Both the position numbers and the translations under genes were made by a program. From assembly GCA_945884695.1 (NCBI GenBank), contig CAMCYO010000001.1:62001-126000 (forward strand): DNA of 64,000 nt, in the 5' to 3' direction. The stretch comes from Streptomyces griseus (GTDB lineage Bacteria; Actinomycetota; Actinomycetes; Nanopelagicales; Nanopelagicaceae). The notes beneath the pieces are model-generated. The model saw only the letters and a list, made by a program, of their open reading frames with translations, was not told the origin of the DNA and did not search any database. Positions 25,530-49,880 of this stretch are shown one piece after another; the first letter of the stretch is position 1; every line of letters starts with the position of its first letter.

Positions 25530-25533
25530 ACAG

Positions 25534-34711: not shown

Positions 34712-35488
34712 ATGAATAGCCAGACTCCTGTAATTGCACTGAAGAATGTTTCAAAAACTTTTGGTGAAGTGCGCTCCCTATCGGGTATTGATTTAGAAAT
34801 CTACCCTGGTGAAATTGTTGGGTTATTGGGTGATAACGGTGCCGGTAAATCCACATTGGTTAAAACCATCATGGGTTTTCATAAGCCAGATGCAGGTGGC
34901 GAGATTTGGTTTAAGGGTGAACAGATCTCAGACTGGAGCGTTGCGAAAGCCCGCGGCCTCGGAATCGAAACGATTTATCAAGAACGAGCACTCTGTGAGC
35001 AACAGCCAATCTGGCGAAATATGTTCATGGGACGCGAAATTGTTAATAGATTTGGAAAATTAGATGTTAAGGGAATGCGCAAAGAAGCCTCTCGCCTAAT
35101 GAGTGAGCACATGGGCTTTACTTCAACTGCAGTTCACCCTGATAACACTGTCTTAACCATGTCGGGTGGAGAAAAGCAGGGAGTAGCTATTACTCGTGCC
35201 CTTCACTTTGAGGCAGAGCTAGTGATTTTGGATGAGCCAACTGTTGGACTTTCACTTTCAGAGACTAGGAAAACCCTTGATTTTATTCAGAACATTAAGG
35301 CCTCTGGCCGTTCTGCAATCTTTATCGATCACAATATCTTCCATATTTATCCTGCAGTGGATCGAATGATTGTCCTCGATCGAGGAAAAGTTGCTGGAAA
35401 TTATAAGAAGAGTGAAATAACCATGGATGAGCTCATCGAGAGCATGTACCGCGTAGCACGCACTGGAAATATGAAGGAGCAAAAATAA
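34712..35488 (+). CDS. Sugar ABC transporter ATP-binding protein (single-domain)
   Basis: A 258-residue ATPase. The Walker A is GLLGDNGAGKSTLVKTIMGF, the signature reads MSGGEKQGVAITRAL, the Walker B is LVILDEPTVGLSLSE, and the H-switch is FIDHNIFH. It corresponds to one half of RbsA-type proteins, as in FrcA-type fructose importers, so a homodimer would energise the permease. GAAAGGCAAG precedes the ATG. The stop overlaps the permease start by one base (TAATG). Confidence 0.92.
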   Translation: MNSQTPVIALKNVSKTFGEVRSLSGIDLEIYPGEIVGLLGDNGAGKSTLVKTIMGFHKPDAGGEIWFKGEQISDWSVAKARGLGIETIYQERALCEQQPIWRNMFMGREIVNRFGKLDVKGMRKEASRLMSEHMGFTSTAVHPDNTVLTMSGGEKQGVAITRALHFEAELVILDEPTVGLSLSETRKTLDFIQNIKASGRSAIFIDHNIFHIYPAVDRMIVLDRGKVAGNYKKSEITMDELIESMYRVARTGNMKEQK

Positions 35489-36495
35489 TGACCGAAAAGA
35501 GCACAGCAACAGCACCTAAGAACAACGCTGCGCGCCCACCTTCCGTGTGGCGTCGTTTCGGTATGCAACTTGGTATTTGGTCCGTTGGAATCGTTATGTG
35601 GCTGGCGTTCGTAGTGCTTGCACCGAGTGCGTTTACTCAGCCTGAAATGTATTTAGCCTTTGCATCTTCCACTCCAATTTTTGCACTGATGGCAATTCCA
35701 CTAACGTTGGTAGTTATTACTGGGGAAATTGATCTCTCTTTTCCATCCATTATGGCTTTATCAACATGCGCTTTTACAAAAGTTGTTGCTGGCGGCGCGC
35801 CAATTATCGTTGGAGTTCTTGCAGGATTTTTGATGGGCATCTCATGCGGTTTAATTAACGGGTACTTGGTAACTAAATTCAATATTCCATCCTTGGTTAT
35901 CACGATTGGAACTCAGTTCTTGTTCTTAGGTTTAGAGCTAGCTTGGACAAATGGTTCCGGCGTAGATCTAACTACAACCAATTACGCCACGATTAGCAAG
36001 ATTTTTGTTGGGCGTACGTTCTTTGGAGTTGCTAACCAGTTCTGGTGGACGATTCTTGCCACACTCTTGCTCTGGTACATCTTGAACAGAACAAGATTTG
36101 GTTCCCATGTGTTCCTTACAGGTGATAACAAGATTTCCGCCCAACTTATGGGTGTGAATATCAGCAGAGTTAAGCAAGGGACCTTTGCACTTGTTGGTTT
36201 TTTCGCAGCACTTGCCGGAATGATTGGTTCATTTGAGGTTAACTACTTCTGGCCAACCATGGGTGGAGGCTTACTCCTCAACTCAATTGCTGCAGTGTTC
36301 TTGGGCGGTACAAGTGTGTTCGGAGGTTCAGGCACAGTAACTGGAACATTTGTTGGTGCATTCATTATTGGTGCCATTAATGCTGGAATTGTTGCTGTAG
36401 GAATCAACGCTTTCTATACGCAAGTTTTCTTCGGTCTTGTGATTATTGCATCGGTACTTTTGCAAGCTATTATCAGTAAGAGAGTTAAGAGCTAA
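35488..36495 (+). CDS. Sugar ABC transporter permease (RbsC/FrcC-like)
   Basis: A 335-residue membrane protein with about 9-10 helices. Family marks are VVITGEIDLSFPSIMALSTC, GLINGYLVTKFNIPSLVITI and GGGLLLNSIAAVFLGGTSVF, all typical of the ribose/fructose/xylose permease family. The N-terminal 20 residues are hydrophilic. Its start overlaps the ATPase stop, so the subunits are made together. Confidence 0.92.
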   Translation: MTEKSTATAPKNNAARPPSVWRRFGMQLGIWSVGIVMWLAFVVLAPSAFTQPEMYLAFASSTPIFALMAIPLTLVVITGEIDLSFPSIMALSTCAFTKVVAGGAPIIVGVLAGFLMGISCGLINGYLVTKFNIPSLVITIGTQFLFLGLELAWTNGSGVDLTTTNYATISKIFVGRTFFGVANQFWWTILATLLLWYILNRTRFGSHVFLTGDNKISAQLMGVNISRVKQGTFALVGFFAALAGMIGSFEVNYFWPTMGGGLLLNSIAAVFLGGTSVFGGSGTVTGTFVGAFIIGAINAGIVAVGINAFYTQVFFGLVIIASVLLQAIISKRVKS

Positions 36496-36519: not shown

Positions 36520-37434
36520 ATGGGCGTTACGCAGCAAATCCGTGGTGTCTGCCCCGTTCTAGCAGTTCCTTTTAACTCAATTGGGGACGTTGATTACGAG
36601 AGTTTTAGAAATTTAGTTCAATTTAACGCTCGCAATGGCGTTGAATCGGTCATGATGTTTGGCGTTGCTAGTGAGAACGCGAAATTAACTGATACTGAGC
36701 GCGAAAAGCTTTTGACTATCTTGATTAAAGAAAAACATGCATCAGGGCTGATTGTCATAGCTACCGTGGCCGATCATTCGCTGGAGCTGGCAAGTAAAAA
36801 GGCTCGGAAGTTTGAAGAAATCGGCGCGGATTTTATCAATATTCTTCCTCCTACCTTCCTTTCTCCTACGCGCGAGCAAATTCTTGAACATATTCGCGGT
36901 ATTTTGGAAAGTGTTTCGATTCCAGTAATCATTCAACATCTTCCGCAAGCTGGGGGGATGGAGGACGTTGCAGTGCTAGCCGAGCTTTGCCACCAATTTC
37001 CCAATCTTTCGATGATCAAGTGCGAAGCAAATCCACCATTTGATTCGATAGCACGAGTGCGGGAAATCTCTGACGGAAAAGTTGGGACTCTCATTGGTTG
37101 GGGAGGCATCGCTTGGGGCGCAGGCACTGCAGCTGGCGCATTAGGCGTTCAACCGGGTTCGGCTGTTGTTGATCTTTATAAATGGGCCCAACGTGCTTTA
37201 GATCGTGGCGAAGTTGCAGAATTCGATAAGCGCCTTGCCACATTTATTCCATGGATTACATTGTGGATTGCCAACGTTGAATTATTGGTTGCAATTGAAA
37301 AGGAAATTCTCTTTCGAAGGGGAGTCATAGCAACAAGTTATTGTCGACGACCAACGACGGGCTGGGATGCCTCACTCGAGAAATCTATTGACGACGCGAT
37401 GGCTTTCATTAATGCGGGAGATTTTAGTGGCTGA
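36520..37434 (+). CDS. DapA-superfamily aldolase/dehydratase
   Basis: A 304-residue class I aldolase-fold enzyme of the DHDPS/NAL superfamily. The Schiff-base lysine is K167 in NLSMIKCEANPP. The usual active-site Tyr-Asn pair of Y-N-x-P reads Q139-H140 in VIIQHLPQAGG, and the GTTGE loop is GVASE, so it is not dihydrodipicolinate synthase. In this neighbourhood it may cleave a 2-keto-3-deoxy sugar acid, or dehydrate and decarboxylate 5-keto-4-deoxyglucarate to 2,5-dioxovalerate (KdgD-like), which the KGSADH at 24057 would oxidise. GGAG abuts the ATG, an unusually short spacing. Confidence 0.82.
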   Translation: MGVTQQIRGVCPVLAVPFNSIGDVDYESFRNLVQFNARNGVESVMMFGVASENAKLTDTEREKLLTILIKEKHASGLIVIATVADHSLELASKKARKFEEIGADFINILPPTFLSPTREQILEHIRGILESVSIPVIIQHLPQAGGMEDVAVLAELCHQFPNLSMIKCEANPPFDSIARVREISDGKVGTLIGWGGIAWGAGTAAGALGVQPGSAVVDLYKWAQRALDRGEVAEFDKRLATFIPWITLWIANVELLVAIEKEILFRRGVIATSYCRRPTTGWDASLEKSIDDAMAFINAGDFSG

Positions 37435-38380
37435 TCTTTTCACCTTTGGCGAGATTTTGGCGCTGTTCTTGGCGAGCGATACGGATGATGTAAAAAGCGC
37501 TCGGGCATACGATCTTTCCTCTGCTGGTGCTGAGGCAAATGTTGCAGTCGCAGTTAAACGCCTAGGTTTAGACGTTTCTTTTATGTCTCGAGTTGGTAAA
37601 GACGAATTGGGCGATGTAGTGATGTTGGAATTGCAGAAGGAAGATCTTTCAACCCAATTCGTGAAGCGAGTGGATGACTACACGTGCGCTCTTATTCGAA
37701 ATCGTGGAACAACAAGGCCGGTGAATGTTACGTATCTCCGAAAATCTAGCGCTGGTTCAACTATGTGTGTCGAGGACCTGCAAGAGTCAGATATCGCGAA
37801 TGCGCGATGGGTCCATGCCACCGGTATTACTGCTGCAATTTCTCTGACAGCACGGGAGGCAGTGATCCATGCACTAAACATTGCGCGAGCAAACTCCTCT
37901 AAAATCAGTTTTGATCTCAACATACGTCGAAAAATTTGGAGTGAAGAGCAAGCTCGGGAAGTTTTGTACGAAATCGCACAGAACGTCGACGTTCTTTTTG
38001 GGGGAGAAGACGAGTATCAGGTTGTTTTCGGCTCGCAGGATCCTCATCAGAACTTGAAGAAAGCAATTGAACGAGGCAATAAGATTGCAGTTATGACTGC
38101 AGGCCCTGGATTAGTCCGCGTTCAAGATGGAGCGACTTATTTTGAAATTTCACCGCCAGTAGTAAAAGCCGTTGACCCAGTCGGTTCCGGAGATGCTTTC
38201 GTTGGTGGAACGATCGCAGGACTTCTTGCAGGGATTTCCTTAAAGGATGCAATTGTTCAAGGAAGCAAATCGGGGGCATCAGTTGCATCCCAGTTTGGTG
38301 ATTGGGCTGGTCTGCCTTTTGGCGTAAAGGGAATTTCCTCCCTCACGGAAGCAATAACAAGGGAGCGCGCCACCTCATGA
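37427..38380 (+). CDS. PfkB-family sugar kinase, probable 2-keto-3-deoxygluconate kinase
   Basis: A 317-residue ribokinase-fold kinase. The N-terminal FTFGEILALFLA and SSAGAEANVAVAVKRLGLDV, the segment MSRVGKDELGDVV and the C-terminal signature VDPVGSGDAFVGGTIAGLLA are typical, the last containing the catalytic Asp. Immediate linkage to a KDPG aldolase indicates phosphorylation of 2-keto-3-deoxygluconate or -galactonate at O6. The GTG at 37427 is chosen: GGGAG lies 6 nt upstream and the overlap with the preceding stop is 8 nt; an ATG 15 bases earlier lacks a site. Confidence 0.85.
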   Translation: MADLFTFGEILALFLASDTDDVKSARAYDLSSAGAEANVAVAVKRLGLDVSFMSRVGKDELGDVVMLELQKEDLSTQFVKRVDDYTCALIRNRGTTRPVNVTYLRKSSAGSTMCVEDLQESDIANARWVHATGITAAISLTAREAVIHALNIARANSSKISFDLNIRRKIWSEEQAREVLYEIAQNVDVLFGGEDEYQVVFGSQDPHQNLKKAIERGNKIAVMTAGPGLVRVQDGATYFEISPPVVKAVDPVGSGDAFVGGTIAGLLAGISLKDAIVQGSKSGASVASQFGDWAGLPFGVKGISSLTEAITRERATS

Positions 38381-38991
38381 TCAATCAACTGCGTGAAACC
38401 GCAATCATGGCCATCGTACGCACCAAGAGCGCAGAATCTGCCAGAGACTTAGCGAACGCACTTCTTGAAGCACAAGTGAGCGTCCTTGAATTTACAACAA
38501 CAACTCCTGATGTATTTGATTTGATACAAGAGTTCTCTTCAAGGCCAGGTGTGCGAATTGGAGTAGGTACTGCACTCACAACCGAACATGTTGCCGCGGG
38601 AAAGCGCGCCGGTGCACAGTTCGTTGTTTCCCCGGGTACAGATGTTGAAGTTATAGAGGCCACAAAAAAGGCCGGAATGATTTCACTTCCTGGAGTAATG
38701 ACTCCTACTGATGTTGCAACGGCACTTAACGCTGGATGCGATGGATTAAAACTATTCCCGGCCTCAGCATTTGGACCAGCGCTTCTCAAAGCGATGCGAG
38801 ATCCATTTCCCAATCAATTTTGGGTTCCAACTGGTGGCATTACGATAGACAGCATCGAAGCATGGACACTTGCCGGAGCAAGTGCCTTTGGCTTAGGAGG
38901 GCCATTAACCGCTGGTGGTTTGGATCAAGCTCCAAAGCGAGCTCAAGATTTTAGAAACGAAATCGCACGAACGAGAGGGTTAGTAAAATGA
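38377..38991 (+). CDS. eda: 2-dehydro-3-deoxy-phosphogluconate aldolase (KDPG/KDPGal aldolase)
   Basis: A 204-residue class I aldolase that splits KDPG (or KDPGal) into pyruvate and glyceraldehyde 3-phosphate. The active-site residues are visible: Glu in VSVLEFTTTTPD, the phosphate-site segment IGVGTALTTEHV, and the Schiff-base Lys in GCDGLKLFPASAFGP. It overlaps the kinase stop (ATGA) and the DgoD-like start (ATGA), giving a tightly coupled kinase-aldolase-dehydratase unit. Confidence 0.92.
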   Translation: MINQLRETAIMAIVRTKSAESARDLANALLEAQVSVLEFTTTTPDVFDLIQEFSSRPGVRIGVGTALTTEHVAAGKRAGAQFVVSPGTDVEVIEATKKAGMISLPGVMTPTDVATALNAGCDGLKLFPASAFGPALLKAMRDPFPNQFWVPTGGITIDSIEAWTLAGASAFGLGGPLTAGGLDQAPKRAQDFRNEIARTRGLVK

Positions 38992-40151
38992 AAATAACAA
39001 AGATCACGACAACCATAGTTAACGCCAATATGCGCAATTGGGTAATCGTTCGCGTGTATACAGATGTGCCCGGACTTATCGGAATTGGCGAAGCCACTGT
39101 TGAGTTTCATGCCCAAGGTGTTGCTGGAGCAATAGCTGACCTATCTCCGCTCATTATCGGCAAAGATCCACGAGAGATTGAAAGATTGTGGCAGATTATT
39201 TATCGTCATCCATTCTTTAAAGGTGGCGTTGTGACGATGTCTGCGCTTTCTGGAATCGATCAAGCGCTCTGGGATATTTCCGCAAAAGATTTGGGTGTGC
39301 CTCTTTGGAGAATTCTTGGTGGTTTAGCCCGCGATCGCGTAAGAATGTATGACCATCTTGGTGGTGGCGATTCTGATGCTGTTTACAATTCAGATACCGC
39401 GCAATCATTTGCTGCAAAGATGAAGAAATCTATTGACGATGGATTTACTGCGGTAAAGATTCTTGCAGTTCCACAATCAGCGCCATTGGGTGGCCACGCA
39501 GGCTTGCGTCATGCAGAGGAATTAATGGGCGCAGCCCGCGATGCCGCCGGTCCTGACGTTGACATCATGATCGATTTCCACGGGCGCACCACTGCTGCAA
39601 TGGCAATTCAGTATGCACGTGTACTTGAGCCATTTAACCCACTCTTCCTAGAAGAAGTTGTTCAACCAGATCAACACGAAGCGCTAGTGCGCGCACGAAA
39701 AGGAATCAACGTTCCGCTGGCAACAGGGGAGCGTCTACTTACTCGCGCAGAATTTCTACCCATTCTCAAAGATGGTCTTATCGATGTGGCCCAGCCTGAT
39801 GTCTGTCATGCAGGAGGAATTACCGAACTTCGCAAAATTTCTAATCTCTGCGAAACCTTTGGAGTGCTTATGGCCCCACATAACCCGCTGGGCCCCATTG
39901 CCACCATGGTGAACGTCCACATGGCCCTAACAACCCCTAATTTCCTTATTCAAGAGGTCATGAGGGCTGATGTGCCGTGGCGCACGGAAGTATTCCAAGG
40001 TGTGCCTGAAATTAAAGATGGGCACCTTCTGCCTCCTACGGCTCTTGGCATTGGCGTGGAAATCGACGAGAATGCAGCCAGTAGGCATCCATTTAAAGCC
40101 GTTACCCCTGTCCAGTGGTATCACAACGACGGCTCAGTAGCAGATTGGTGA
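38988..40151 (+). CDS. DgoD-like galactonate dehydratase family protein
   Basis: A 387-residue mandelate-racemase-subgroup enolase-superfamily enzyme very like E. coli DgoD in layout. It has MKITKITTTIVNANMRNWV at the start, ALSGIDQALWDISAKDLGVP, the metal strands VDIMIDFHGRTTAAMA, FLEEVVQPDQ and LATGERLLTRAEF, the catalytic His in LMAPHNPLGPIA, and the C-terminal NDGSVADW ending. It dehydrates D-galactonate or a close aldonate to a 2-keto-3-deoxy acid, which the adjacent kinase and aldolase then use. FLEEVV is a small change from the usual FIEEPV. Confidence 0.87.
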   Translation: MKITKITTTIVNANMRNWVIVRVYTDVPGLIGIGEATVEFHAQGVAGAIADLSPLIIGKDPREIERLWQIIYRHPFFKGGVVTMSALSGIDQALWDISAKDLGVPLWRILGGLARDRVRMYDHLGGGDSDAVYNSDTAQSFAAKMKKSIDDGFTAVKILAVPQSAPLGGHAGLRHAEELMGAARDAAGPDVDIMIDFHGRTTAAMAIQYARVLEPFNPLFLEEVVQPDQHEALVRARKGINVPLATGERLLTRAEFLPILKDGLIDVAQPDVCHAGGITELRKISNLCETFGVLMAPHNPLGPIATMVNVHMALTTPNFLIQEVMRADVPWRTEVFQGVPEIKDGHLLPPTALGIGVEIDENAASRHPFKAVTPVQWYHNDGSVADW

Positions 40152-40156: not shown

Positions 40157-40915
40157 ATGAAACTCAAAGACCAACACATTTTTGTAACAGGTGGCGCAGA
40201 TGGAATTGGCGCTGCAATTGTTTTAGATGTCGCTCAAGAGGGAGCAAAGGTTTCTTTCTGCGATATCAATGTTGAAAAAGCTCAGGCCTATGTAAAAGCT
40301 TTAACAGCGAAAGGTTTTTCGGTTTTTTTCCACCAGGCTGACGTTGGAAATTTCGAGAGCATTAAAACAGCCCACACCGCGATGGTGAAACATTTCGGGC
40401 CGGTTAATGGCGTGGTAAATAATGCTGGGGTCAATGCAAATTATGATCCTGCAGAGATGACAAATGAAGAGTGGGAAAGATTTTTTAACGTGGACCTTAA
40501 GAGTGTTTGGCATACCGCTAAGGCATGTTTGCCAGACATGCGCAAAGCGAAAAAGGGTTCAATTGTTAACATCGCATCGATTCATGCACGTATGACCTAC
40601 CAGGGATATTTTCCATATGGCGCAGCCAAATCTGGAATTATTGGTTTAACTCGCAGTTTGGGACTTGATGAGGGAATTAACGGAATCCGTACCAACGCAG
40701 TCTCACCCGGCTACACGTTAACGCCACTTCTTGAGTCCTGGTTTGTTTTGGAACCCACCAAGCGAAAAGAGTCGATGGCGGTACAGCCTTTGGGACGCAT
40801 GGCTCAACCATCAGAGATTGCAAAGGTTGTCACATTCCTATTGAGTGATGATTCATCCTTTGTAAACGGTGCTGACTGGATCGTTGATGGTGGACTCTCA
40901 GCCCGCTTTGCCTAA
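40157..40915 (+). CDS. Short-chain dehydrogenase/reductase
   Basis: A 252-residue classical SDR: IFVTGGADGIGAAIVLDVAQ at the cofactor site, VNNAGVNANYDPAEM, the catalytic Ser in VNIASIHARMTYQGYFPY, and Y-G-A-A-K. The ATG at 40157 lies 5 nt after the dehydratase stop; the frame opening at 40115 would overlap that gene for no gain. It probably generates the lactone or keto form that feeds the dehydratase, for example as a galactose or fucose-type dehydrogenase (inference). Confidence 0.82.
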   Translation: MKLKDQHIFVTGGADGIGAAIVLDVAQEGAKVSFCDINVEKAQAYVKALTAKGFSVFFHQADVGNFESIKTAHTAMVKHFGPVNGVVNNAGVNANYDPAEMTNEEWERFFNVDLKSVWHTAKACLPDMRKAKKGSIVNIASIHARMTYQGYFPYGAAKSGIIGLTRSLGLDEGINGIRTNAVSPGYTLTPLLESWFVLEPTKRKESMAVQPLGRMAQPSEIAKVVTFLLSDDSSFVNGADWIVDGGLSARFA

Positions 40916-40990: not shown

Positions 40991-42196
40991 ATGACTCATG
41001 GAGCCCTTGAAAAATTACGCGTAATTGATGCCACACAAATGCTTGCAGGACCCATTGCTGGAGTGCGACTCGGAGATCTTGGAGCTGATGTAATAAAAGT
41101 TGAGCCTCCAAATCTTGGAGAGTTCAATAGAACGCGCGGATTTGAAGATAAGCAGAGCAATGGCGAGATGACTACTTTTCTTGCCGTCAATCGCAATAAA
41201 CGATCCCTTGCTATCGATCTTAAACATCCTGACGGAAAGGCAACTATTCATGAGTTGGTAAAAAACTCTGATGTTTTCTTGCAAAATTTTCGCTACGGTA
41301 CAGCAGATCGTTTAGGAATTGGTTACGAAGAACTTCACAAAATAAATCCTCGCTTAATTTACTGTTCGATTTCAGGCTATGGCTCCTTTGGTCCCTATCG
41401 TGATCGCCCAGGACAAGATCTCATTGTGCAGGGATATAGCGGTTCAATGTTTAGTGTTGGAGCCGAAGGTGATGCTCCAACCCCAAGTGCACTTTGGGGA
41501 GCCGATGTCATGACTGGTTACCAAGCCGTCATTGGAATTTTGGCAGCTGTTGAATCACGACACCAAACAGGAATTGGTCAACATGTGGAAGTGGATATGT
41601 TGTCAGTGGTTATGGATTGTCAATTACAGGAGATGGTCACATTTTTAAATGCGGGTGCAATGCCTCGCCGATTAGTGGAACGCAGTGCACATGGATCAAT
41701 CCCAGCGCCATATGGAGTGTACAAAACTAAAGATGGTTGGCTCACTCTTGCCATGGTCCCACTGCCCTTGCTTGGTGAGATTTTCAACGATGATTGGTTG
41801 AAAACTCTTACACACTACAACTCTGGGCACTTGCATCGCGACAAAGTTTACGCGCTTATCCGCAATAAATTTGTAGACAAGACCACGCAAGAGTGGATCG
41901 ATATCTGCGATGAAATAGGTGCGTGGTGTGGCCCGGTTTATAACTATGAAGATTTAGTGAATGACCCACATATCAAAGAAACTAACTACATCGTTGAACA
42001 ACCACAATTGCGTGGCGGATCCGCGCGCACGGTAAGACCACCACTTCGGCTTTCAGAAACACCACCAACAATTCGCCGTGGAGCCCCAGCACTGGGTGAG
42101 CACTCACGAGAAGTTCTAAGTGGCGTTCTTGGGTTCTCTGATTCACATATTGATGCACTGGTGGCTGCCGGTGCAATCGGACTAGTAAAGGAGTAA
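40991..42196 (+). CDS. CaiB/BaiF-family (class III) CoA-transferase
   Basis: A 401-residue enzyme of the family that moves CoA between carboxylic acids via an aspartyl-CoA intermediate. Marks are VIDATQMLAGPIAGVRLGDL, GADVIKVEPPNLGE, NRNKRSLAIDLKHPDGKATI, and the catalytic Asp in RPGQDLIVQGYSGSMFSVG. C-terminal sequences (RTVRPPLRLSETPP, GAPALGEHSREVL) are also typical. It heads a block with two crotonases and a GH88/GH105 protein, so it probably charges a sugar-derived carboxylic acid with CoA; donor and acceptor are unknown. Confidence 0.88.
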   Translation: MTHGALEKLRVIDATQMLAGPIAGVRLGDLGADVIKVEPPNLGEFNRTRGFEDKQSNGEMTTFLAVNRNKRSLAIDLKHPDGKATIHELVKNSDVFLQNFRYGTADRLGIGYEELHKINPRLIYCSISGYGSFGPYRDRPGQDLIVQGYSGSMFSVGAEGDAPTPSALWGADVMTGYQAVIGILAAVESRHQTGIGQHVEVDMLSVVMDCQLQEMVTFLNAGAMPRRLVERSAHGSIPAPYGVYKTKDGWLTLAMVPLPLLGEIFNDDWLKTLTHYNSGHLHRDKVYALIRNKFVDKTTQEWIDICDEIGAWCGPVYNYEDLVNDPHIKETNYIVEQPQLRGGSARTVRPPLRLSETPPTIRRGAPALGEHSREVLSGVLGFSDSHIDALVAAGAIGLVKE

Positions 42197-42198
42197 TG

Positions 42199-42993
42199 AT
42201 GGTCGTAGGTAACCCAGGTAACGTCAGATTCGAGCGTCACGGAAATACTGCGCACTTGATTCTTGATCGCCCAGAGAAAATCAATGCCATGACAGTAGTT
42301 ATGGATAAGCAGATGAACTCCTATATTTACGAGATCAATAACAACATGGATATCCGCTCCGTTGTTCTCTACGGTAAAGGTGAAAAGGGATTTTGTGCAG
42401 GGAGCGATTTAACCGAACTCGATGAATACGGAAATAACTGGGAGTACCGTAATCGTTTTGATCGTGGCCTTGATTACGCGCGCGCTATTTGGTTGATTAA
42501 AAAACCAACTGTTGCATCCCTTCATGGCTGGTGCATCGGTGGTGGCCTCGAAATGGCTTGTGCATCCGATATTCGGGTGGCATCTCCTGATACTAAATTT
42601 CAAGCCGGCGAAATTCGTTGGGGTTGGCACGGGGGTTCTGGGCAAACACAACTTCTCACACATGCAGTAGGGCCAGGTAACGCATCACTATTTTTGCTTC
42701 ATGGTGAAGCTGTTGAAGCGGATGCTGCTTTGCGAATGGGTCTTGTGCAAGAAGTTGTTCCTCGCGATCAAGTGCTTAACCGAGCAATTGCTATTGCTGA
42801 ATCCATTGCAGCAAAAGCTCCAATTGCTGCACAAATGACTAAGCACATGGTGCGCATGGCACAGAGCATGCCTCTTGAAGTCGCATTGCTATATGAGAAC
42901 GATTCATTCTCTTATTGCATGACGACAGAAGATGCCGCAGAGGGCCAGAAAGCATTCCAAGAAAAGCGTCCACCGAATTTCCAAGGAAGGTAA
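42199..42993 (+). CDS. Crotonase-fold enzyme (first of a paralogous pair)
   Basis: A 264-residue enoyl-CoA hydratase/isomerase relative. Oxyanion-hole segments are GEKGFCAGSDLTELDEYGNN and HGWCIGGGLEMACASDIR. The usual PGAGG-T-Q block reads GEIRWGWHGGSGQTQLL, with an unusual Trp-His. It aligns throughout with the product of 44801-45592 (shared GSD-x5-D-x-YG-x-NWE-x-RNR, WHGG-x-G-x-TQLL, YEND-x-FSYC-x-TTED), showing duplication. The second ATG (42199) is preferred because GGAG sits 5 nt before it; the first overlaps the CaiB stop. Confidence 0.85.
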   Translation: MVVGNPGNVRFERHGNTAHLILDRPEKINAMTVVMDKQMNSYIYEINNNMDIRSVVLYGKGEKGFCAGSDLTELDEYGNNWEYRNRFDRGLDYARAIWLIKKPTVASLHGWCIGGGLEMACASDIRVASPDTKFQAGEIRWGWHGGSGQTQLLTHAVGPGNASLFLLHGEAVEADAALRMGLVQEVVPRDQVLNRAIAIAESIAAKAPIAAQMTKHMVRMAQSMPLEVALLYENDSFSYCMTTEDAAEGQKAFQEKRPPNFQGR

Positions 42994-42997
42994 TTAC

Positions 42998-44086
42998 ATG
43001 TCATCTGCTCCAGCACTTGGCTCCCGCCAAGAACGATTAGATGTTTTAGCAAAAGTTGCTTCATCCATTCCGACGATGCGCTTTAGTACGTGGAACTTTG
43101 GAGATTCAACCGGTTTTGAAGGAATGCTTGAGTCAGGCAAACTACTTAAGGATCCAAAATATTTTGCTTTCGCACATGGCTGGATGCGTGCATGGGCTAC
43201 ACGACCAACCCCATATTCACGCATGGATGCAACTGCGCCAGGAATGGCGATGGTAGAAGTAGCGCACGAAGCAAATGATTCAATCTTGCTAGAAGCACTA
43301 ATCGGTCTTGCCCGATATTTGATGTCTCGCCCAAAAGATCGTGGAATTTTTGATATGTGGGAGAGCATGTGTTTGATTCCGCCTTATGGTGGCGAAACTT
43401 TGCCACCTAAAGAAGCGGCACTTCTAGCTGAACCACCCGGGGGTTCTTGCGTTGACTGTTTGCATTTTGATCCGCCATTTTTTACTGCACTTGGAAAAGA
43501 GTTAGAAAGTGCAGAATTTACAGAAGTGGGCGTGGAGCAAGCACTTGCTTACATCGAAAATTTCCAGCAAGAAAGCGGAATCTTCGACCACTTCTTTATG
43601 CACGGTGTGCCAGGAAACTTCGGACAAGGTTGGGGCCGAGGTCAAGGTTGGTCAATGCTTGGAATGCTTGATGTTTTAAAGAACATTAGCGCCAAGCACC
43701 CCGCCCGCAAAACAATTGAAGAAGCAGTTGTTAAACAAATTAATGGCATGATCAAATTGCAACGACCTGATGGTCGCTGGTGGTGTGTAGTCGATGTACC
43801 GGCCTCCGGCGAAGAAGGATCAACTGCTGCATTTATGGCAACTGGTTTTGCCCGCGCAATTAAAATGGGACTCGTTGATAAGAAAACTGTCCTGCCTCAC
43901 GCTATCGATGCTCTCGCTGGGGCAATTGCGGACACCGATGAAAATGGACATCTCAAAAATGTCACAGCTGCCGTAATGGCATCAACTCGTGTTTCACATT
44001 ACGTGCATACACCCCGTGGATTTTTAGTTCCGTGGGGACAAGGACCACTTGCAATGGCTATTTGTGAAATGGATGATTTAGTGTGA
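42998..44086 (+). CDS. Glycoside hydrolase family 88/105-like unsaturated uronyl hydrolase
   Basis: A 362-residue (alpha/alpha)6-barrel-type protein. Segments STWNFGDSTGFEGMLESG, DATAPGMAMVEVAHEANDS, SCVDCLHFDPPFFTALGKEL (holding the Asp equivalent to the catalytic residue of YteR-type enzymes), SGIFDHFFMHG, and GWGRGQGWSMLGMLDVL match the GH88/105 pattern. Family members hydrate the C4-C5 double bond of unsaturated uronyl or rhamnogalacturonyl residues to release the sugar. There is no signal peptide, so it is cytoplasmic and acts on imported oligosaccharides or glycosides. GGAAGG precedes the ATG at 42998. No polysaccharide lyase is in the window. Confidence 0.8.
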   Translation: MSSAPALGSRQERLDVLAKVASSIPTMRFSTWNFGDSTGFEGMLESGKLLKDPKYFAFAHGWMRAWATRPTPYSRMDATAPGMAMVEVAHEANDSILLEALIGLARYLMSRPKDRGIFDMWESMCLIPPYGGETLPPKEAALLAEPPGGSCVDCLHFDPPFFTALGKELESAEFTEVGVEQALAYIENFQQESGIFDHFFMHGVPGNFGQGWGRGQGWSMLGMLDVLKNISAKHPARKTIEEAVVKQINGMIKLQRPDGRWWCVVDVPASGEEGSTAAFMATGFARAIKMGLVDKKTVLPHAIDALAGAIADTDENGHLKNVTAAVMASTRVSHYVHTPRGFLVPWGQGPLAMAICEMDDLV

Positions 44087-44820
44087 AAACTCTGATGGCG
44101 CGTAACTTGCCAACGCAACTTGTGATCGAATTAGGGGCACAAATAGTTTCTGGTAAATTGGCACCTGGAACTATTCTGACTTCGGATACTTTAGAGTCAC
44201 AGTTTGGCGTAAGTCGCACAGTTGTCCGTGAAGCGCTGAAAGTTCTACACGATAAGGGGTTAACTAGACCACGCACTAAAACAGGAACAATTGTCTTGTT
44301 GCGTGAAGAGTGGAATTTGTTGGATCCAGATGTCATCGGCTGGCTGCGTTCTTCAGGGCTTGCACCGGAGCTTTTAAAGGATCTCGAGGAGGTGCGAGCG
44401 AGTTTCGAACCTTGGGTTGCTCGAATTGCAGCTAAACGTAGAGGATCGAAAGATATAGCTAATTTATCGTCCGCACTCAAGAAGATGACCGATGCTTATT
44501 ACGCAGAAGGACTGAAGTCTTCAATCATCGGTGAAGCGGATATGGAATTTCATGAGGCCATTTTGGAGGCGACTCAAAACGAATTAATGAAACGAATTGG
44601 TTCTCTATTGATTCCACTTCTTGGAATTCGCGATGAAATGGTTCGAGATGTAATTTCTGATGGTGACCCATTAGTCGCCCAACACAAAGCGGTGTTGGAC
44701 GCAATTATCGATGAAGATCCCGATGCGGCAGAGAACGCAATGAAATTCCTACTTGAACAGGCTGCAGAAGCATCTGATTCGATTCGAAGGAGAGTAAAAA
44801 GTGACGCTTTCATTACCTAA
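44083..44820 (+). CDS. GntR-family (FadR/FCD subfamily) transcriptional regulator
   Basis: A 245-residue repressor. The winged helix is LVIELGAQIVSGKLAPGTIL, then LESQFGVSRTVVREALKVLH, ending with RTKTGTIVL; the FCD effector domain starts at WNLLDPDVIGWLRSSG, a phrase typical of DgoR-like regulators of aldonate catabolism. Ligand-site residues are expected in DMEFHEAILEATQNE and AQHKAVLDAIID. It is embedded in the block it probably controls, overlapping the hydrolase stop by 4 nt (GTGA) and the next crotonase by 20 nt. The operators at 31243-31266, 33529-33545 and the 40.9-kb gap are candidate targets. Confidence 0.88.
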   Translation: MKTLMARNLPTQLVIELGAQIVSGKLAPGTILTSDTLESQFGVSRTVVREALKVLHDKGLTRPRTKTGTIVLLREEWNLLDPDVIGWLRSSGLAPELLKDLEEVRASFEPWVARIAAKRRGSKDIANLSSALKKMTDAYYAEGLKSSIIGEADMEFHEAILEATQNELMKRIGSLLIPLLGIRDEMVRDVISDGDPLVAQHKAVLDAIIDEDPDAAENAMKFLLEQAAEASDSIRRRVKSDAFIT

Positions 44821-45592
44821 TCTGCCAGAGGAGCTTAGGTTTGAAGTTGCCGGCGCAGTTGCGACCATCACACTCAACCGCCCAGCAAAACTCAACACGA
44901 TGACTCCTGCTATGGGCAAAGCTCTTGTCGAACTTGTCTACTACGTCAATAACACCAGCGATGTGCGAGTGGTTGTTTTAACTGGCACGGGTACCAAAGC
45001 ATTCTCGGCTGGTAGCGATATTAAGGTTCTAGATGATTACGGTTCCAATTGGGAACTTCGCAACCGTGTGGATTATGCGCGAGTACTCTGGCAAATCCGC
45101 AAACCAATGATTGCCAAAATTCGAGGCTATTGCATTGGTGGGGGATTGGAAATGGCGCTGATGTGCGACATTCGCTACTCAACTCCTGATGCACGCTTTG
45201 GCGCTGGAGAAATCAAATTAGGTTGGCATGGAGGAGCTGGCAACACCCAACTTCTCCCACGTCACATGAGCACAGGCAAAGCTCTTGAAATGTTACTTAC
45301 AGGGGACATGATTTCGGCAACAGAGGCAGAAAAAACTGGCTTAGTTGATCGAATTTGCGAAGAGACAGAGTTAGACGCCAAAGTGGCTGACCTTGCTCAT
45401 CGCATTGCAAGTAATGCACCAATCGCTTCCGAACTCGCCAAACATTTGGTTCGGATATCAATGTCAACTTCACCTGATGTTGGACTGATGTATGAAAACG
45501 ATACCTTCTCGTACTGCTTTACAACCGAGGACAGCAAAGAGGGTCGCGCTGCCTTTGTAGAAAAACGCGCCCCACAATTCAAAGGAAGATAG
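44801..45592 (+). CDS. Crotonase-fold enzyme (second of a paralogous pair)
   Basis: A 263-residue crotonase relative closely related to the product of 42199-42993. Oxyanion segments are TKAFSAGSDIKVLDDYGSNW and GYCIGGGLEMALMCDIR, and the altered active-site block is GEIKLGWHGGAGNTQLLP. Retaining both copies in one operon suggests two successive or alternative CoA-thioester substrates. The GTG at 44801 has GGAGAG upstream within the end of the gntR gene. Confidence 0.85.
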   Translation: MTLSLPNLPEELRFEVAGAVATITLNRPAKLNTMTPAMGKALVELVYYVNNTSDVRVVVLTGTGTKAFSAGSDIKVLDDYGSNWELRNRVDYARVLWQIRKPMIAKIRGYCIGGGLEMALMCDIRYSTPDARFGAGEIKLGWHGGAGNTQLLPRHMSTGKALEMLLTGDMISATEAEKTGLVDRICEETELDAKVADLAHRIASNAPIASELAKHLVRISMSTSPDVGLMYENDTFSYCFTTEDSKEGRAAFVEKRAPQFKGR

Positions 45593-45594
45593 AC

Positions 45595-46554
45595 ATGGAA
45601 ATTCTGCCAGGCATACATCGCATTGAATGTCCTATCGCAACTCGTTATGTAGCAATTTATGCAATCGTCGGCTCTGCTTCAACACTCATTATCGATACTG
45701 GGTTCGATGGCTCTATTCGCGAAACCGTAATCCCATATTTCAAAGAGAAGAAGCTTTCGCTAGAAGCAGTCAAATATGCATTTAACACCCACTCAGATTT
45801 TGACCATACTGGTGGAAATAAAGCCGTCAAGGAATTCATGCCCAATGCCTTGATTTGTTGTGGCGAAAGAGACCGCGCAATGATTGAAGATCTACAAATA
45901 ATGATTGATGATCGCTACGGTGAATTCAATCATGACCACGGATTCCCTGACGATCCAGATACGGGAGCATTTGTACGTGCTGTAGCTTTTGAAACGCGTA
46001 TTGACATTGGCTTCACAGGCGGTGAGCGCATCGACTTAGGCGATCGCATAGTTGAAGTTCTACATACTCCAGGTCACTCATGGGGCCATCTTTCTTTCTT
46101 GGACGAGAAAACTGGCGCCGTAATTATTGGTGATGCAGTTCTGGGAGATAGCGTGTTGCATGCTGATGGCGCACCTGCTTTCCCTCCTACCTATCGATTC
46201 GTTGAGGCATACCGAGCTTCAATTCGCTTGCTTAAGGGAATGAATCCAACTGAAGTTCTGACCTCTCACTACCCACGCTATAAAGGACAAGACGGTATTG
46301 ATTTCCTTGATACATCACTTGCCTATACCGACTTAGCAGAGCGCGTGGCACTTGAAACAATTACTCAAGCAGGTGGGCCAATAACCCTTGCTGAGATTAT
46401 TGAAAAATGTCACGATCGACTTGGTCCTTGGGAAAATCCTGCTTATACCTACTTGTCATATCCGCTTCTTGGCCACCTTGAAGTTCTTGAAGGCTATAAA
46501 AAAATCAAGCGTGGTAAAAATGCACAGGCAATTCCAACGTGGAGTGTTGCCTAA
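45595..46554 (+). CDS. Metallo-beta-lactamase-fold hydrolase
   Basis: A 319-residue MBL-fold protein, last of the block. The opening IHRIECPIATRYVAIYAIVG and STLIIDTGFDGS are standard. The metal motif H-x-H-x-D-H reads H-S-D-F-D-H (in NTHSDFDHTGGNKA), so the second His is Asp; later ligands in VLHTPGHSWGHLSFLDEK, IIGDAVLGDSV and TSHYPRY are intact. A C-terminal helical extension (about 225-319) resembles that of thioesterase- or lactonase-like relatives. A CoA-thioester hydrolase or lactonase role would suit the operon (inference). The gene starts 2 nt after the crotonase stop and overlaps the convergent gene by 4 nt. Confidence 0.82.
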   Translation: MEILPGIHRIECPIATRYVAIYAIVGSASTLIIDTGFDGSIRETVIPYFKEKKLSLEAVKYAFNTHSDFDHTGGNKAVKEFMPNALICCGERDRAMIEDLQIMIDDRYGEFNHDHGFPDDPDTGAFVRAVAFETRIDIGFTGGERIDLGDRIVEVLHTPGHSWGHLSFLDEKTGAVIIGDAVLGDSVLHADGAPAFPPTYRFVEAYRASIRLLKGMNPTEVLTSHYPRYKGQDGIDFLDTSLAYTDLAERVALETITQAGGPITLAEIIEKCHDRLGPWENPAYTYLSYPLLGHLEVLEGYKKIKRGKNAQAIPTWSVA

Positions 46555-47336
46555 ATCTGATTGATGAATTGGGAAAGCGCGCTGACAACTTTTTCACATC
46601 CGGGGCTGAACGTTAAGTCTGGATTGAGAAAGGTGTCAGCGCGAATTTCTGCCATGATCGAAGAAACTGCGCGATCTTTCTGGTAGTACTCCAGTGGCAC
46701 GTAAGTGCCTGCATAGGGTTCATTTTTTACGCTCTCACCAACGCCTTCAAATGCCTGACTCATTGCTTTGATGAGCAGGGCTGGTGTGTGAAAATTATCG
46801 GTTCCAATACATAGTGGTGGGCGTTGTTGCATCTTATTGATGCCATTTGAATGTGCAAGGGGTCTGTAGGAATGCACATCCACAATTGTCACCGCACCTA
46901 AGGCTTTTAATCGTTGCCCTATGAGGCTCGAAAGTGCAAAAGCATAGGGATGAAAATACTTCTCGAGTAGGTCCCTATCGCGGTTTTTATCAAGAGCGCG
47001 TAAATCTTTCCCAGAGGAGGTTTTCGTGTAGACAGCGCCCATTCCAACAGCGCTCATTTTCTCTCGCTCGTCGGGAAATCTCTCTGGGTCAATGACTAAT
47101 CGTGAAAGAGAATTGATGAAGAGCCATGGTCTTGCATTCGAAAGTTTGGCCGATTCGGTAGCGAGATATTCGGTAGCGGAATCGGTCATTTCATCTAACT
47201 CTTGTTGCAGCTGGTTATCATCTAGAAGTATGCGCGCTCGTACCTCTTCTGGAATCACTCGTGATGAATGTGGAACATGGAGCACTACATGCGATTGAGC
47301 ATCGCCCGGAATAATCAGAAAATTCGGATTGCCCAC
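46551..47336 (-). CDS. N-formylglutamate amidohydrolase-family protein
   Basis: A 261-residue FGase-superfamily (PF05013-type) zinc amidohydrolase. Marks are HVVLHVPHSSRVIPEEV, LFINSLSRLVIDPERFPDE, the metal and acid region TIVDVHSYRPLAH and GTYVPLEYYQKDRAVSSIMA followed by EIRAD. Family members hydrolyse N-formylglutamate in histidine breakdown. No hut genes are present, and the gene is the last of an amino-acid ABC operon under a SAM-IV riboswitch, so it may act on another N-acylated amino acid such as formyl- or acetyl-methionine (inference). The GTG start lies 2 nt after the ATPase stop. Confidence 0.82.
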   Translation of the reverse strand: MGNPNFLIIPGDAQSHVVLHVPHSSRVIPEEVRARILLDDNQLQQELDEMTDSATEYLATESAKLSNARPWLFINSLSRLVIDPERFPDEREKMSAVGMGAVYTKTSSGKDLRALDKNRDRDLLEKYFHPYAFALSSLIGQRLKALGAVTIVDVHSYRPLAHSNGINKMQQRPPLCIGTDNFHTPALLIKAMSQAFEGVGESVKNEPYAGTYVPLEYYQKDRAVSSIMAEIRADTFLNPDLTFSPGCEKVVSALSQFINQI

Positions 47337-47338
47337 AA

Positions 47339-48088
47339 TTACAATCGGCCTGCTTCGTGGACACGCTTAAGAAAATCCTTGGTGCGTGGATCACTTGGAT
47401 TTTCAAGCACTTTACTGGGAGGGCCATATTCAACAATTCGACCCTGATGCAAAAAACAGACTTCGTCGGCTACTTGTTTAGCAAAACCCATCTCATGTGT
47501 TGCAATCACCATTGTCATGCCCTCGTGTTTTAAATCGCGCACGGTGCTGAGCACTTCATTAACTAACACTGGATCTAGGGCTGATGTGACTTCATCTAAA
47601 AGTAGAAGTCGTGGCTTTAGGGCTAAAGATCGAATAATGGCAACTCTTTGCTGCTGGCCTCCACTGAGACGATCAGGATATTGATCAGCCTTTTCCAAAA
47701 GATCAAAGCGTGAGAGCAATGCTTGCGCGGCGCTCCTCGCTTCCTCTTTGTCGATACCTTGCACGCGAATGGGGGAAAGGGTGATGTTCTCTATAACGCT
47801 CATATGAGGAAAAAGATTAAAAGATTGAAATACCATGCCAAGTTTTCTGCGCACTTCATCAGCGTTGATGCGCGGATCGCTGATCTCTTCTCCATCTAAG
47901 TTGATAACTCCATCATCGATTCCATCGAGTAAGTTGATACAACGCAGAAGAGTTGATTTACCAGAGCCTGATGACCCGATAAAAACTGTTGCCGTGTGCA
48001 CGGGCACTTCAAATGAAATCTCTTGTAGTACAACGTCTGGCCCAAAAGATTTACGAAGCCCAGATACGTCCAAAACAGGGGAGCTCAT
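47339..48088 (-). CDS. Polar amino-acid ABC transporter ATP-binding protein
   Basis: A 249-residue HisP/GlnQ-type ATPase. The Walker A is FIGSSGSGKSTLLRCINLLD, the Q-loop VFQSFNLFPHMSVIENI, the signature LSGGQQQRVAIIRSLALKP, the Walker B LLLLDEVTSALDPVLVNEVL, and the H-loop ATHEMGFA. It overlaps the permease stop by 4 nt. The SAM-IV element at the head of the operon points to sulfur amino acids as cargo, although the ATPase alone cannot tell. Confidence 0.93.
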   Translation of the reverse strand: MSSPVLDVSGLRKSFGPDVVLQEISFEVPVHTATVFIGSSGSGKSTLLRCINLLDGIDDGVINLDGEEISDPRINADEVRRKLGMVFQSFNLFPHMSVIENITLSPIRVQGIDKEEARSAAQALLSRFDLLEKADQYPDRLSGGQQQRVAIIRSLALKPRLLLLDEVTSALDPVLVNEVLSTVRDLKHEGMTMVIATHEMGFAKQVADEVCFLHQGRIVEYGPPSKVLENPSDPRTKDFLKRVHEAGRL

Positions 48089-49002
48089 GCCAAGCCCTGC
48101 GCATTCTGTCGCTCAATGGCGCGTCGCATGGTTCTGTCAGTGAAGCGTGTGAGTGGAACGGTAACGATGAGAAACAAAATAGCTGCCATAACATAAGGCG
48201 TGTAATTGAAGCTGCGACTGCTTGAAATCTGTGCAGCTCTCACAGCATCAGTCACTCCAAGAATGGAAACAAGGCCTGTGTCCTTGATGAGAGCAACTAA
48301 ATCATTAAGAAGTGGTGGAGTAACGCGACGAAGCGCCTGCGGCAAAACAACATGGCGAAGAGTTTGAAAATTCGAAAGCCCAAGGGACCTTGCTGCAGCT
48401 CTTTGACTCGGATGTACTGTAAGAATTCCACTGCGTAAAACTTCTGCGACGTAGGCCGAGTACGTGATGATTACTGCGGTAGTTCCCAGGATTAAGACAT
48501 TTTTCGTAAACCCAGGTAAACGCAGAGCAGGAATTCCAAAACCAACAAGCAAGATAATGAGGAGCATAGGAACTCCACGGAAAACATCTACATAAATTGT
48601 TGCCAAAATCCGAAAAGGTGTGAGAGCGGGGGATCGAGATGTTCTCGTGAGAGCCAGGATTAAACCAAAAATCGAAACACAGGTACCGGCAATAATGGTG
48701 AGCATGATGTTGGTCGTAAATCCTAAAATAACTTTCGGTAATATTTCCACGCCATAAGCCCAGGCAAAAAAAGTATCTGAAAGACTTTCAAAACCAGGTG
48801 ATGTCACGAGAATAGTGAGAAGAGTTCCAAGCACTAGAACGCTTGAAGCGGTCGCAATCAAGATATTTTTGCGGTTTTGCTCACTGCGAATCTTTCTCCG
48901 CGATTGTTCCAACGCGCTCGGTTGCCAGTGAACGCTCTCTTGAGAATGTGAAGAAGCACGGCTCCCAGGTTCAGGAGCCGTGCTATTCACAGGATTATTC
49001 AC
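48085..49002 (-). CDS. Polar amino-acid ABC transporter permease
   Basis: A 305-residue HisM/GlnP-type permease with a hydrophilic N-terminal extension of about 48 residues and then about 5-6 helices. The EAA loop is EVLRSGILTVHPSQRAAARS followed by LGLSNFQTLRHVVLPQALRR. The first codons contain a perfect 11-bp hairpin (48955-48984), which may reduce expression relative to the binding protein. The start at 49002 is 20 nt after the binding-protein stop. Confidence 0.9.
   Translation of the reverse strand: MNNPVNSTAPEPGSRASSHSQESVHWQPSALEQSRRKIRSEQNRKNILIATASSVLVLGTLLTILVTSPGFESLSDTFFAWAYGVEILPKVILGFTTNIMLTIIAGTCVSIFGLILALTRTSRSPALTPFRILATIYVDVFRGVPMLLIILLVGFGIPALRLPGFTKNVLILGTTAVIITYSAYVAEVLRSGILTVHPSQRAAARSLGLSNFQTLRHVVLPQALRRVTPPLLNDLVALIKDTGLVSILGVTDAVRAAQISSSRSFNYTPYVMAAILFLIVTVPLTRFTDRTMRRAIERQNAQGLA
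48955..48984 (-). repeat. Strong hairpin inside the first codons of the permease gene
   Basis: AGCACGGCTCC and GGAGCCGTGCT are perfect 11-bp arms with an 8-nt loop, on the minus strand followed by TCTTCACA. It lies 39-68 nt past the binding-protein stop but within permease codons 7-16. It would act like the intercistronic hairpin of the sugar importer, but encoded within coding sequence. Confidence 0.75.
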
Positions 49003-49022
49003 TTTGCGTGAACGTTATTCGA

Positions 49023-49880
49023 TTACTTCAGTACCGGAGCTCCAGCGCCGACGGTTAACCACTTATCTTGGATAGCTTTGAGCTCTCCACTTGCAGTGAT
49101 TGCATCAACGGCTCCAGTAACACATGCTGTTAGTGGGCTGTCTTTGGCTAGAAGTAAACCTGCACCCTGATCGTTCGAATCACGGTTTTCAATTTGGCCA
49201 ACAATGATTCCATCGGTTACTTCAGCAGCTGACAGATAAAAGGCAGTGGGAAGATCAACTACCAGCCCATCGATTTGGCCATTCTTTAGCGCAGCCACAG
49301 CAGCAGCATTGTCATTGAATACCTGCGGCTTAAGACCTAGTTGCATTTCAATGGTATCTAGCGATGTTGAACCAACTGCTGCTCCAAGCCTGGCACCCTT
49401 TAGCCCTGCAATTGTTGTAACCCCAGCGATCTTGCTTGCCTTTGACGAGACGATTGCTTGATTAGAGAAGTAGTAGGCACTTGAAAAATCCACAACTGCT
49501 TTGCGCTCATCTGTGATGGAGTATTGCTGGATATTGAAATCAAATGTTTTCTCGCCAGGTGTAATTGCTGAGTCAAATGTGGTTCGAACCCACTTCACGG
49601 CAGCGTTTTCATAACCAAGTTGCTTAGCAACAGCGTATGCAACTGCTGCTTCAAAACCTTCGCCAGATTCTGGCTTGTCATTGAGCACCCAAGGCTCATA
49701 TGCAGGCTCTCCTGTTGCAATTGTTAATGTTGCAGGCGTCAATGTTTTCAATGAATCTGGAGCACATGATGCTGATTCGCTAGATGGCGAAGCACTTTCG
49801 CTATCTTGCCCAGCACATGATGTAAGTCCGACCGCAAATAAAATTGCTGCTATTGCTGTAAGTGGCTTATTGATTTTCAT
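49023..49880 (-). CDS. Amino-acid ABC transporter substrate-binding lipoprotein
   Basis: A 285-residue family 3 solute-binding protein. A lipoprotein signal peptide ends in the lipobox LTSC (Cys22), then an acidic Ser-rich linker. The bilobal domain is visible as TLTIATGEPAYEPWVLND, FDFNIQQYSITDERKAVVDF, ARLGAAVGSTSLDTIEMQLG and GQIDGLVVDLPTAFYLS. The specificity cannot be read directly; control by a SAM-IV riboswitch implies methionine or another sulfur compound. GAGGAAGG precedes the ATG. Longer linker polymorphism is normal for surface lipoproteins. Confidence 0.9.
   Translation of the reverse strand: MKINKPLTAIAAILFAVGLTSCAGQDSESASPSSESASCAPDSLKTLTPATLTIATGEPAYEPWVLNDKPESGEGFEAAVAYAVAKQLGYENAAVKWVRTTFDSAITPGEKTFDFNIQQYSITDERKAVVDFSSAYYFSNQAIVSSKASKIAGVTTIAGLKGARLGAAVGSTSLDTIEMQLGLKPQVFNDNAAAVAALKNGQIDGLVVDLPTAFYLSAAEVTDGIIVGQIENRDSNDQGAGLLLAKDSPLTACVTGAVDAITASGELKAIQDKWLTVGAGAPVLK

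Follow-up and report, generated by a model that had tools for sequence, protein, structure and literature searches.

The stretch of DNA considered here (the window) comprises 64,000 nucleotides of contig CAMCYO010000001.1 (assembly GCA_945884695.1, positions 62,001 to 126,000), part of a 1.48 Mb genome in 31 contigs which is filed as Streptomyces griseus and placed by GTDB in the Nanopelagicaceae. At 40991-46554 it carries a block of six genes, of confirmed presence and all on the + strand, whose conservation and possible role in uronate catabolism are the subject of this analysis: a CaiB-type class III coenzyme A (CoA)-transferase (401 amino acids, 40991-42196), a first crotonase (ECH1, 265 amino acids, 42196-42993), a protein resembling glycoside hydrolase (GH) families 88 and 105 (the GH88-like protein, 362 amino acids, 42998-44086), a GntR/FCD transcriptional regulator (44083-44820), a second crotonase (ECH2, 263 amino acids, 44801-45592) and a metallo-beta-lactamase (MBL)-fold hydrolase (319 amino acids, 45595-46554). 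The intergenic gaps, in order from CaiB to MBL, are -1, +4, -4, -20 and +2 bases, and the short-chain dehydrogenase/reductase (SDR) gene upstream lies 75 bases from CaiB; the block is as tightly spaced and uniformly oriented as a first-pass annotation of the sequence had described it, and the domain labels given there agree with the Pfam matches.

The CaiB-type protein has a full-length CoA_transf_3 domain (PF02515, E 1.3e-103, 347.4 bits), and its Asp172 aligns with the Asp of solved class III transferases, which we take to be the active-site residue; domain and residue together place it in class III (CaiB/BaiF), and the Asp is kept in all 17 loci compared below. It does not reach the L-carnitine CoA-transferase model NF002914 (139.9 bits, cut-off 413). 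The two crotonases, about 50% identical to each other, both match ECH_1 (Pfam E-values of 1.4e-50 and 4e-57 for the pair) and share a W-H-G-G turn. ECH1 is identifiable as a crotonase by Glu119 and Glu139, in GGG-x-E and G-E-I segments, presumably the catalytic pair; ECH2 has both as well, and the two Glu together with a W-x-x-R-N-R motif are kept in 28 of 28 crotonases from the 17 loci. The MBL-fold protein (Lactamase_B, E 2.5e-22) carries H-x-D-x-D-H in 17 of 17 loci, with Asp replacing the second His of the usual HxHxDH; the metal motif of MBL-fold acyl-CoA thioesterases is absent, and the protein is not assigned to that group. Its model is nearest 2zo4, an MBL-family protein (Z 24.8), with PqsE, a thioesterase, lower (Z 19.4), and it may act as a thioesterase or lactonase. 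The regulator matches Pfam GntR plus FCD and has no NCBIfam equivalog (best NanR, 85.7 bits, cut-off 260), so that the earlier label “DgoR-type” is not retained.

The start of the GH88-like gene is set at the ATG at 42998, the best by reading, the mechanical open reading frame (ORF) opening earlier, at 42932; no signal peptide is obvious by eye, and the protein is taken as cytoplasmic. Its assignment to the GH88/GH105 group draws on the Glyco_hydro_88 profile (PF07470, E 2.4e-34, 119.3 bits, cut-off 26.6), an (alpha/alpha)6 barrel, and the catalytic and pocket residue set. The ten best structural matches to the predicted model (mean pLDDT 71.8) have Z scores of 31.3-35.0 and are GH105/GH88-type or putative hydrolases of that kind. 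Alignment to YteR pairs D154, H199, W213, R215 and W219 with D143, H189, W211, R213 and W217, and alignment to CA_C0359 pairs D78 with Asp75 and F35 with Tyr25. The likely vinyl-hydration residues of YteR, CA_C0359 and unsaturated glucuronyl hydrolase (UGL) are given as Asp143/Asp130/Asp149, His189/His176/His193, Asp88/Asp75/Asp88 and Tyr41/Tyr25/Phe46, with two Trp and one Arg as conserved pocket residues (PMC4528949). F35, D78, D154, H199, W213, R215 and W219 are all kept in 17 of 17 loci. The sole NCBIfam match that might have pointed to a finer family, beta-galactosidase BglB, scores 91.7 bits where 420 would be needed and was discarded.

Across genomes, the module genes are patchy within the order but travel together. 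Among 151 genomes of the order, 11 have a CaiB orthologue (at least 76% identity), 19 further genomes having relatives at 35-39% only; exactly the same 11 have a GH88-like orthologue (at least 63% identity), with remote GH88 proteins only (26-28%) in seven further genomes. These 11 fall in four genera; of the window's own genus, 17 genomes are listed and 4 are among the 11. At the level of the class, a GH88-subfamily profile finds 8 of 394 genomes, and an ECH1 search of the same 394 recovers close orthologues (at least 65%) in the same 8, plus a match at 48% in genome G273. Counts in further, overlapping samples are 3/199 (family of genome G413), 2/396 (order of G413) and 2/296 (phylum; one of these is the window's own genome): the module is rare yet widely scattered. 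The chance of an identical set under independent spread is about 6e-17 for 11 in 151 and about 7e-17 for 8 in 394, probabilities which ignore shared ancestry and come from overlapping samples.

After removal of duplicates, 17 distinct GH88-subfamily loci are available: the window, ten from other genomes of the order, and L005, L004, L063, L068, L069 and L073. CaiB, crotonase and MBL genes lie near GH88 in every one of them, the loci spanning two or more classes of one phylum, and a GntR/FCD homologue was found in 14 of the other 16 (none in L035 or L068). In L027 (genome G007), at 14182-17341, an opposite-strand carbohydrate ABC transporter between ECH2 and MBL interrupts an otherwise compact operon. 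Searches with the window proteins found neither CaiB nor crotonase in any of nine control GH88/GH105 loci: seven from the order with remote GH88 proteins, and two on rhizobial plasmids. This is a modest control, three stretches being just 7-9 kb and the two rhizobial loci coming from strains of one species; one of the latter has an adjoining GH28 gene, the other a gap in the gene table at that place. The wider GH88 query on plasmids gave 92 records, all below 60% identity and 86 of them Rhizobium, the 30 best at about 22%. The idea that the block might be no more than a chance neighborhood, which the first-pass annotation had tied to homologues never co-occurring elsewhere, is not borne out by the matching 11/151 and 8/394 sets and the 17 loci, and a conserved module uniting CoA-thioester enzymes with a GH88/105-type enzyme is supported.

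The same loci bear on the number of crotonase steps. A single crotonase of the group is found in 6 of 17, ECH1 alone in L004, L035, L063, L069 and L073 and ECH2 alone in L068, where the contig stops 444 bases past the MBL gene and a second crotonase could lie beyond. It is firm that one crotonase can suffice; two sequential steps as a requirement are rejected, single-crotonase loci of either type existing, and the earlier proposal of an acid “hydrated or rearranged twice” is not supported. Four loci (type A: L004, L063, L069, L073) have an ECH1-like crotonase only, L068 (type B) has an ECH2-like one, and the 12 loci of own-family type have both, save L035. Where six of these 12 were compared (two of them for crotonases), own-family CaiB is 62-67% identical to type A vs. 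48-51% to type B, ECH1 is 57-66% identical to type A, and ECH2 of the window shares 64% identity with the type B crotonase; for GH88 the values are 41-52% (type A) vs. 53-63% (type B), and for MBL 35-39% vs. 56-59%. In the GH88 and MBL trees, type A stands apart from the remaining 13 rows (support 100/99 and 100/100, respectively); in the crotonase tree, ECH1 joins type A (80/92) and ECH2 joins type B (93/97), the type B row nesting among own-family ECH2 rows (89/92).

One reading of these sequence relationships is that the twin crotonases could be the outcome of a merger of two module versions. This is weakened because the type B crotonase lies inside own-family ECH2, because the CaiB tree does not separate types A, B and the rhizobial rows, and because all four trees carry a warning of long branches meeting (one intended outgroup, L039, is also absent from the crotonase tree). 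A type B locus derived from an own-family cluster would fit the nested crotonase equally well. ECH1 and ECH2 are probably alternative crotonases from two module versions, rather than catalysts of consecutive steps.

Upstream of the block, on the same strand, lies the galactonate-type Entner-Doudoroff set that had been described from the sequence, and its members are present: a dihydrodipicolinate synthase (DHDPS)-family protein (36520-37434; PF00701, E 2.2e-21), a PfkB-type kinase resembling those for 2-keto-3-deoxygluconate (KDG) and its galactonate counterpart (KDGal) (37418-38380; NF040938, 175.5 bits, below the cut-off of 400), an aldolase resembling those for the corresponding 6-phosphates, KDPG and KDPGal (38377-38991; TIGR01182, 153.8 bits, slightly under 156.05), a galactonate dehydratase-like protein (DgoD, 38988-40151; NF010624, 348.9 bits, above the cut-off of 311) and an SDR oxidoreductase identified through Pfam (SDRd, 40157-40915), whose gene adjoins CaiB on the 5' side in 11 of the 12 loci of own-family type. 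Preceding these are genes for a sugar ABC substrate-binding protein-like ORF (33569-34588; NF052284, 75.3 bits, below 420), a transporter ATPase (34712-35488; PF00005) and a sugar ABC permease, nearest to the ribose type (35488-36495; NF007067, 159.7 bits, below 398), all on the + strand. In L063, L069 and L073, an SDR gene directly adjoins GH88.

Just upstream again, at 22442-33376, is a second sugar-acid island, with crotonase-like, SDR, aldehyde dehydrogenase and gluconolactonase genes, an FAH-like gene (by eye), an extra enolase, an APH-type kinase, a U32-like protein and a second dehydratase of the muconate-lactonizing enzyme (MLE) type. The enolase paralogue (Pfam Enolase_C and Enolase_N) adjoins the APH-type phosphotransferase at 26385-28645, amid sugar-acid genes, and the same pair turns up again beside CaiB in L035. 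Downstream of the block, on the - strand at 46551-49880, are an N-formylglutamate amidohydrolase-like gene and a polar amino-acid-type ABC transporter (by eye); the first two genes of this stretch sit at the same place in L026. Elsewhere, an ORF resembling a damaged sugar kinase (by eye, with no Pfam match) follows the module in L004, a Bifidobacteriaceae metagenome-assembled genome, at 11804-12502. Glycosidase-like genes flanking the module differ among loci: GH2 in L073 (4055-6229), GH123-like in L063 (5562-7583) and a weak GH31-like match, below cut-off, in L069 (14408-16789), which may point to different parent glycans.

What might such a module do? We put at even chances the proposal that the block encodes a CoA-dependent route making glycosidically bound uronates cleavable, with a substrate and a chemistry that we infer. 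An ABC transporter would import a small acidic glycoside. Going by its family, CaiB would then turn the free carboxylate of the non-reducing-end hexuronate into a CoA thioester, with the CoA swapped with product as for carnitine; a hexuronide is also a beta-hydroxy acid, with its carboxylate at C6, C5 as alpha carbon and a hydroxyl on C4. The thioester would acidify the C5 hydrogen, and the two-glutamate crotonase could strip this hydrogen and the C4 hydroxyl to give a 4,5-unsaturated uronyl-CoA. In a D-glucuronide the C4 hydroxyl and the C5 hydrogen lie on one face, and enoyl-CoA hydratases eliminate syn, so that a glucuronide would fit better than a galacturonide. The free acid might be regained by CaiB exchange or through the thioesterase-like MBL protein, the weakest step of the scheme. 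The GH88/105-like enzyme, which has the fold and residues for it, would then hydrate the vinyl ether, releasing the aglycone and 5-keto-4-deoxyuronate. From there the genes at hand would allow reduction to KDG by an SDR, then conversion by KDG kinase and KDPG aldolase to pyruvate and glyceraldehyde 3-phosphate; in own-family-type loci, a branch through DgoD and a sugar dehydrogenase would take a released aldose, or an aldonate such as galactonate.

The order of events here is probably the inverse of that proposed at first, in which an acid was released from a glycoside and then charged with CoA. GH88 and GH105 activity requires an unsaturated sugar, according to a study of ulvan breakdown (PMC8511951), so CoA charging and elimination more plausibly precede GH88. 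Of the earlier overall interpretation, then, the joining of CoA-thioester enzymes and GH88 in a conserved module is supported, while the reaction order, the double crotonase step and the DgoR label are not.

Priming by dehydration has precedents. In ulvan breakdown, the uronate dehydratase P29_PDnc, described as seemingly cofactor-independent, removes water from a saturated uronate and so primes GH105 (PMC8511951); in chondroitin breakdown, dehydration by BcGDH, formerly GH154, primes GH88 (PMC12269599). The proposed route resembles both in converting a saturated non-reducing-end uronate to its 4,5-unsaturated form, followed by GH105 or GH88 release; those dehydratases, however, are single proteins of other families, whereas the one proposed here would consist of two, a CoA-transferase and a crotonase, and would work on a thioester. 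For that pairing the model is carnitine metabolism, in which CaiB and CaiD jointly take water from a beta-hydroxy acid while CoA passes back and forth between substrate and product (PMC2131755). The likeness is of a class III CoA-transferase paired with a crotonase; the difference is that here the neighbors of the pair are sugar transporters, GH88 and KDG enzymes, and that the block has no CaiC-like ligase. The GH88-like protein, similarly, has the fold and main vinyl-hydration residues of UGL and YteR, but differs from them in sequence (14-19% identity in structural alignment), in some YteR pocket residues and in having CaiB and crotonase neighbors. Some of the loci resemble the Kdu/Kdg pathway in having genes for an SDR, KDG kinase and KDPG aldolase close to the module; the KduI of that pathway is missing from the window's own genome, which has extra DHDPS-family and DgoD genes.

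In the open-licence literature, no use of uronyl-CoA names was found, and none of the matches listed there described CoA-dependent dehydration feeding GH88, GH105 or unsaturated glucuronyl hydrolase: dehydration ahead of GH88/GH105 is already published, and the CoA-dependent version appears new. The full claim would be that glycosyl uronyl-CoA thioesters serve as intermediates of catabolism in bacteria from two or more classes of a single phylum, CaiB and sugar-adapted W-x-x-R-N-R crotonases forming a CoA-dependent uronide dehydratase, a third, unrelated, lyase-free way to feed GH88/105; we rate its chances as falling just short of even.

Other arrangements of the same parts can be envisaged. 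The CoA chemistry might act on a glycosyl-glycerate, or a similar alpha-glycosyloxy, beta-hydroxy acid: the crotonase would take the beta hydroxyl of the CaiB-charged glycerate to give an enolpyruvyl glycoside, the GH88-like protein would split the enol ether to pyruvate and sugar, and the sugar would pass to a sugar dehydrogenase, DgoD, KDG kinase and aldolase. This would account for the ribose-like ABC permease and for the pairing of DgoD with an SDR in 11 of the 12 loci of own-family type, and aldose-epimerase-like proteins occur near the module in L004, L063, L069 and L073 (two Pfam matches, both below cut-off). The equivalent of UGL/YteR Asp88, which we take to contact uronate ring hydroxyls, is nevertheless kept in 17 of 17 loci, and L069 has KDG kinase and aldolase with no DgoD- or MLE-like match within 20 kb (other dehydratase families were not sought); glycosyl-glycerate as the substrate is considered unlikely. 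The original order, in which an imported unsaturated glycoside is cut by GH88, the released acid is charged with CoA, two crotonases act and MBL releases the product, seems a little less likely again. Every gene product for it is present, and import of lyase products would remove the need for a polysaccharide lyase. On the other hand, CoA would have nothing to do in the path known for the GH88 product, which runs through reduction, KDG kinase and aldolase (the kinase and aldolase genes accompany the core in 8 of 17 loci); a single crotonase is all that six of the loci show, and CaiB and crotonase are missing from all nine control GH88/105 loci.

CaiB, crotonase and MBL could instead break down a carboxylic aglycone (a hydroxy acid, for example) freed by GH88, in a short path like beta-oxidation. 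That relatives of CaiB and the crotonase act on hydroxy acids (PMC2131755) is in keeping with this, as are the resemblance of the MBL model to PqsE (Z 19.4) and FadB-like (crotonase part matched) and thiolase-like ORFs elsewhere in the window (1630-4930, by eye). Against it, no acyl-CoA dehydrogenase, 3-hydroxyacyl-CoA dehydrogenase or thiolase was seen among the genes read in the block and in seven loci (L004, L027, L035, L063, L068, part of L069, and L073), the other loci having been compared with the window proteins only; GH88 would, moreover, still require an unsaturated uronide, and the aglycone path is regarded as improbable. Chance assembly of unrelated catabolic genes draws on the mosaic nature of catabolic islands, the one at 22442-33376 carrying further sugar-acid genes; it is scarcely credible beside two genome samples in which the presence sets coincide and 17 of 17 loci that share one core, and is rejected.

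Several observations weigh against the proposed CoA-dependent uronate route itself. In the GH88-like protein, Met147 of YteR, conserved across the GH105 set of one study (PMC4528949), is replaced by Phe158, and by Phe in 17 of 17 loci; as Met147 is a GH105 pocket residue outside the catalytic pair, the protein is not filed as GH105 proper. The place of YteR Trp141 (residue 152, by extension, since the alignment starts at D154) holds Cys in 14 of 17 loci and Phe in 3 of 17. Identity of the model to solved GH88/105 chains is just the 14-19% given above, and UGL matches (Z 25.5-26.6) barely exceed those to cellobiose 2-epimerases (Z 25.1), with the GH105 group clearly apart. The MBL motif is atypical, and structure assigns the protein no function; the SDRs of the window match many SDR families, none shown above cut-off. 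A CoA ligase to prime the CoA cycle is absent from the block, the acyl-CoA-ligase-like ORF at 12620-14407 (by eye) being about 27 kb away.

Further difficulties lie in the supply and fate of the uronate. KduI was searched for in the window's own genome and not found, and direct reduction by an SDR must be assumed. Only 8 of the 17 loci have KDG kinase and KDPG aldolase close by (L069, L073 and six of own-family type; in L030 the contig ends before their expected place), and the galactonate dehydratase is left unexplained by uronate alone. Among polysaccharide lyases, only PF07940 and PF02278 were sought in the genome: PF07940 was not found, and the PF02278 search gave no match but is uninformative, its control having matched nowhere either. 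A lyase search this narrow leaves room for imported uronides that are already unsaturated.

Plasmid searches with ECH1 and CaiB also led to a sister gene set, carried by rhizobial plasmids and present in G273 as well, having CaiB (44-47% identity) and a W-x-x-R-N-R crotonase (46-49%) and no GH88 match (L074, 12001-15130; L075, 5642-10762; L076, 7528-10750; L098, 9218-13971). Between CaiB and crotonase, L075 has a protein with a weak likeness to solute-binding ones, and L074 and L098 hold one whose start is similar; an SDR and a DUF4432 protein are likewise present in L075 and L098. Near the set in G273 are an OiaK-like kinase (below cut-off), a GH95 gene and a RuBisCO-like protein (by eye). 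This sister set hints that CoA-linked sugar-acid chemistry extends beyond the GH88 module.

Coenzyme A is familiar as an activator of fatty, amino and aromatic acids. If the proposed route is correct, it would also activate intact sugar acids for cleavage, and a function would be available for a crotonase/CaiB group that profile libraries assign no more closely than to generic enoyl-CoA hydratases and CoA-transferases. Bacteria with small genomes, such as the one considered here, could then use acidic glycosides without a lyase or glucuronidase in the cluster.

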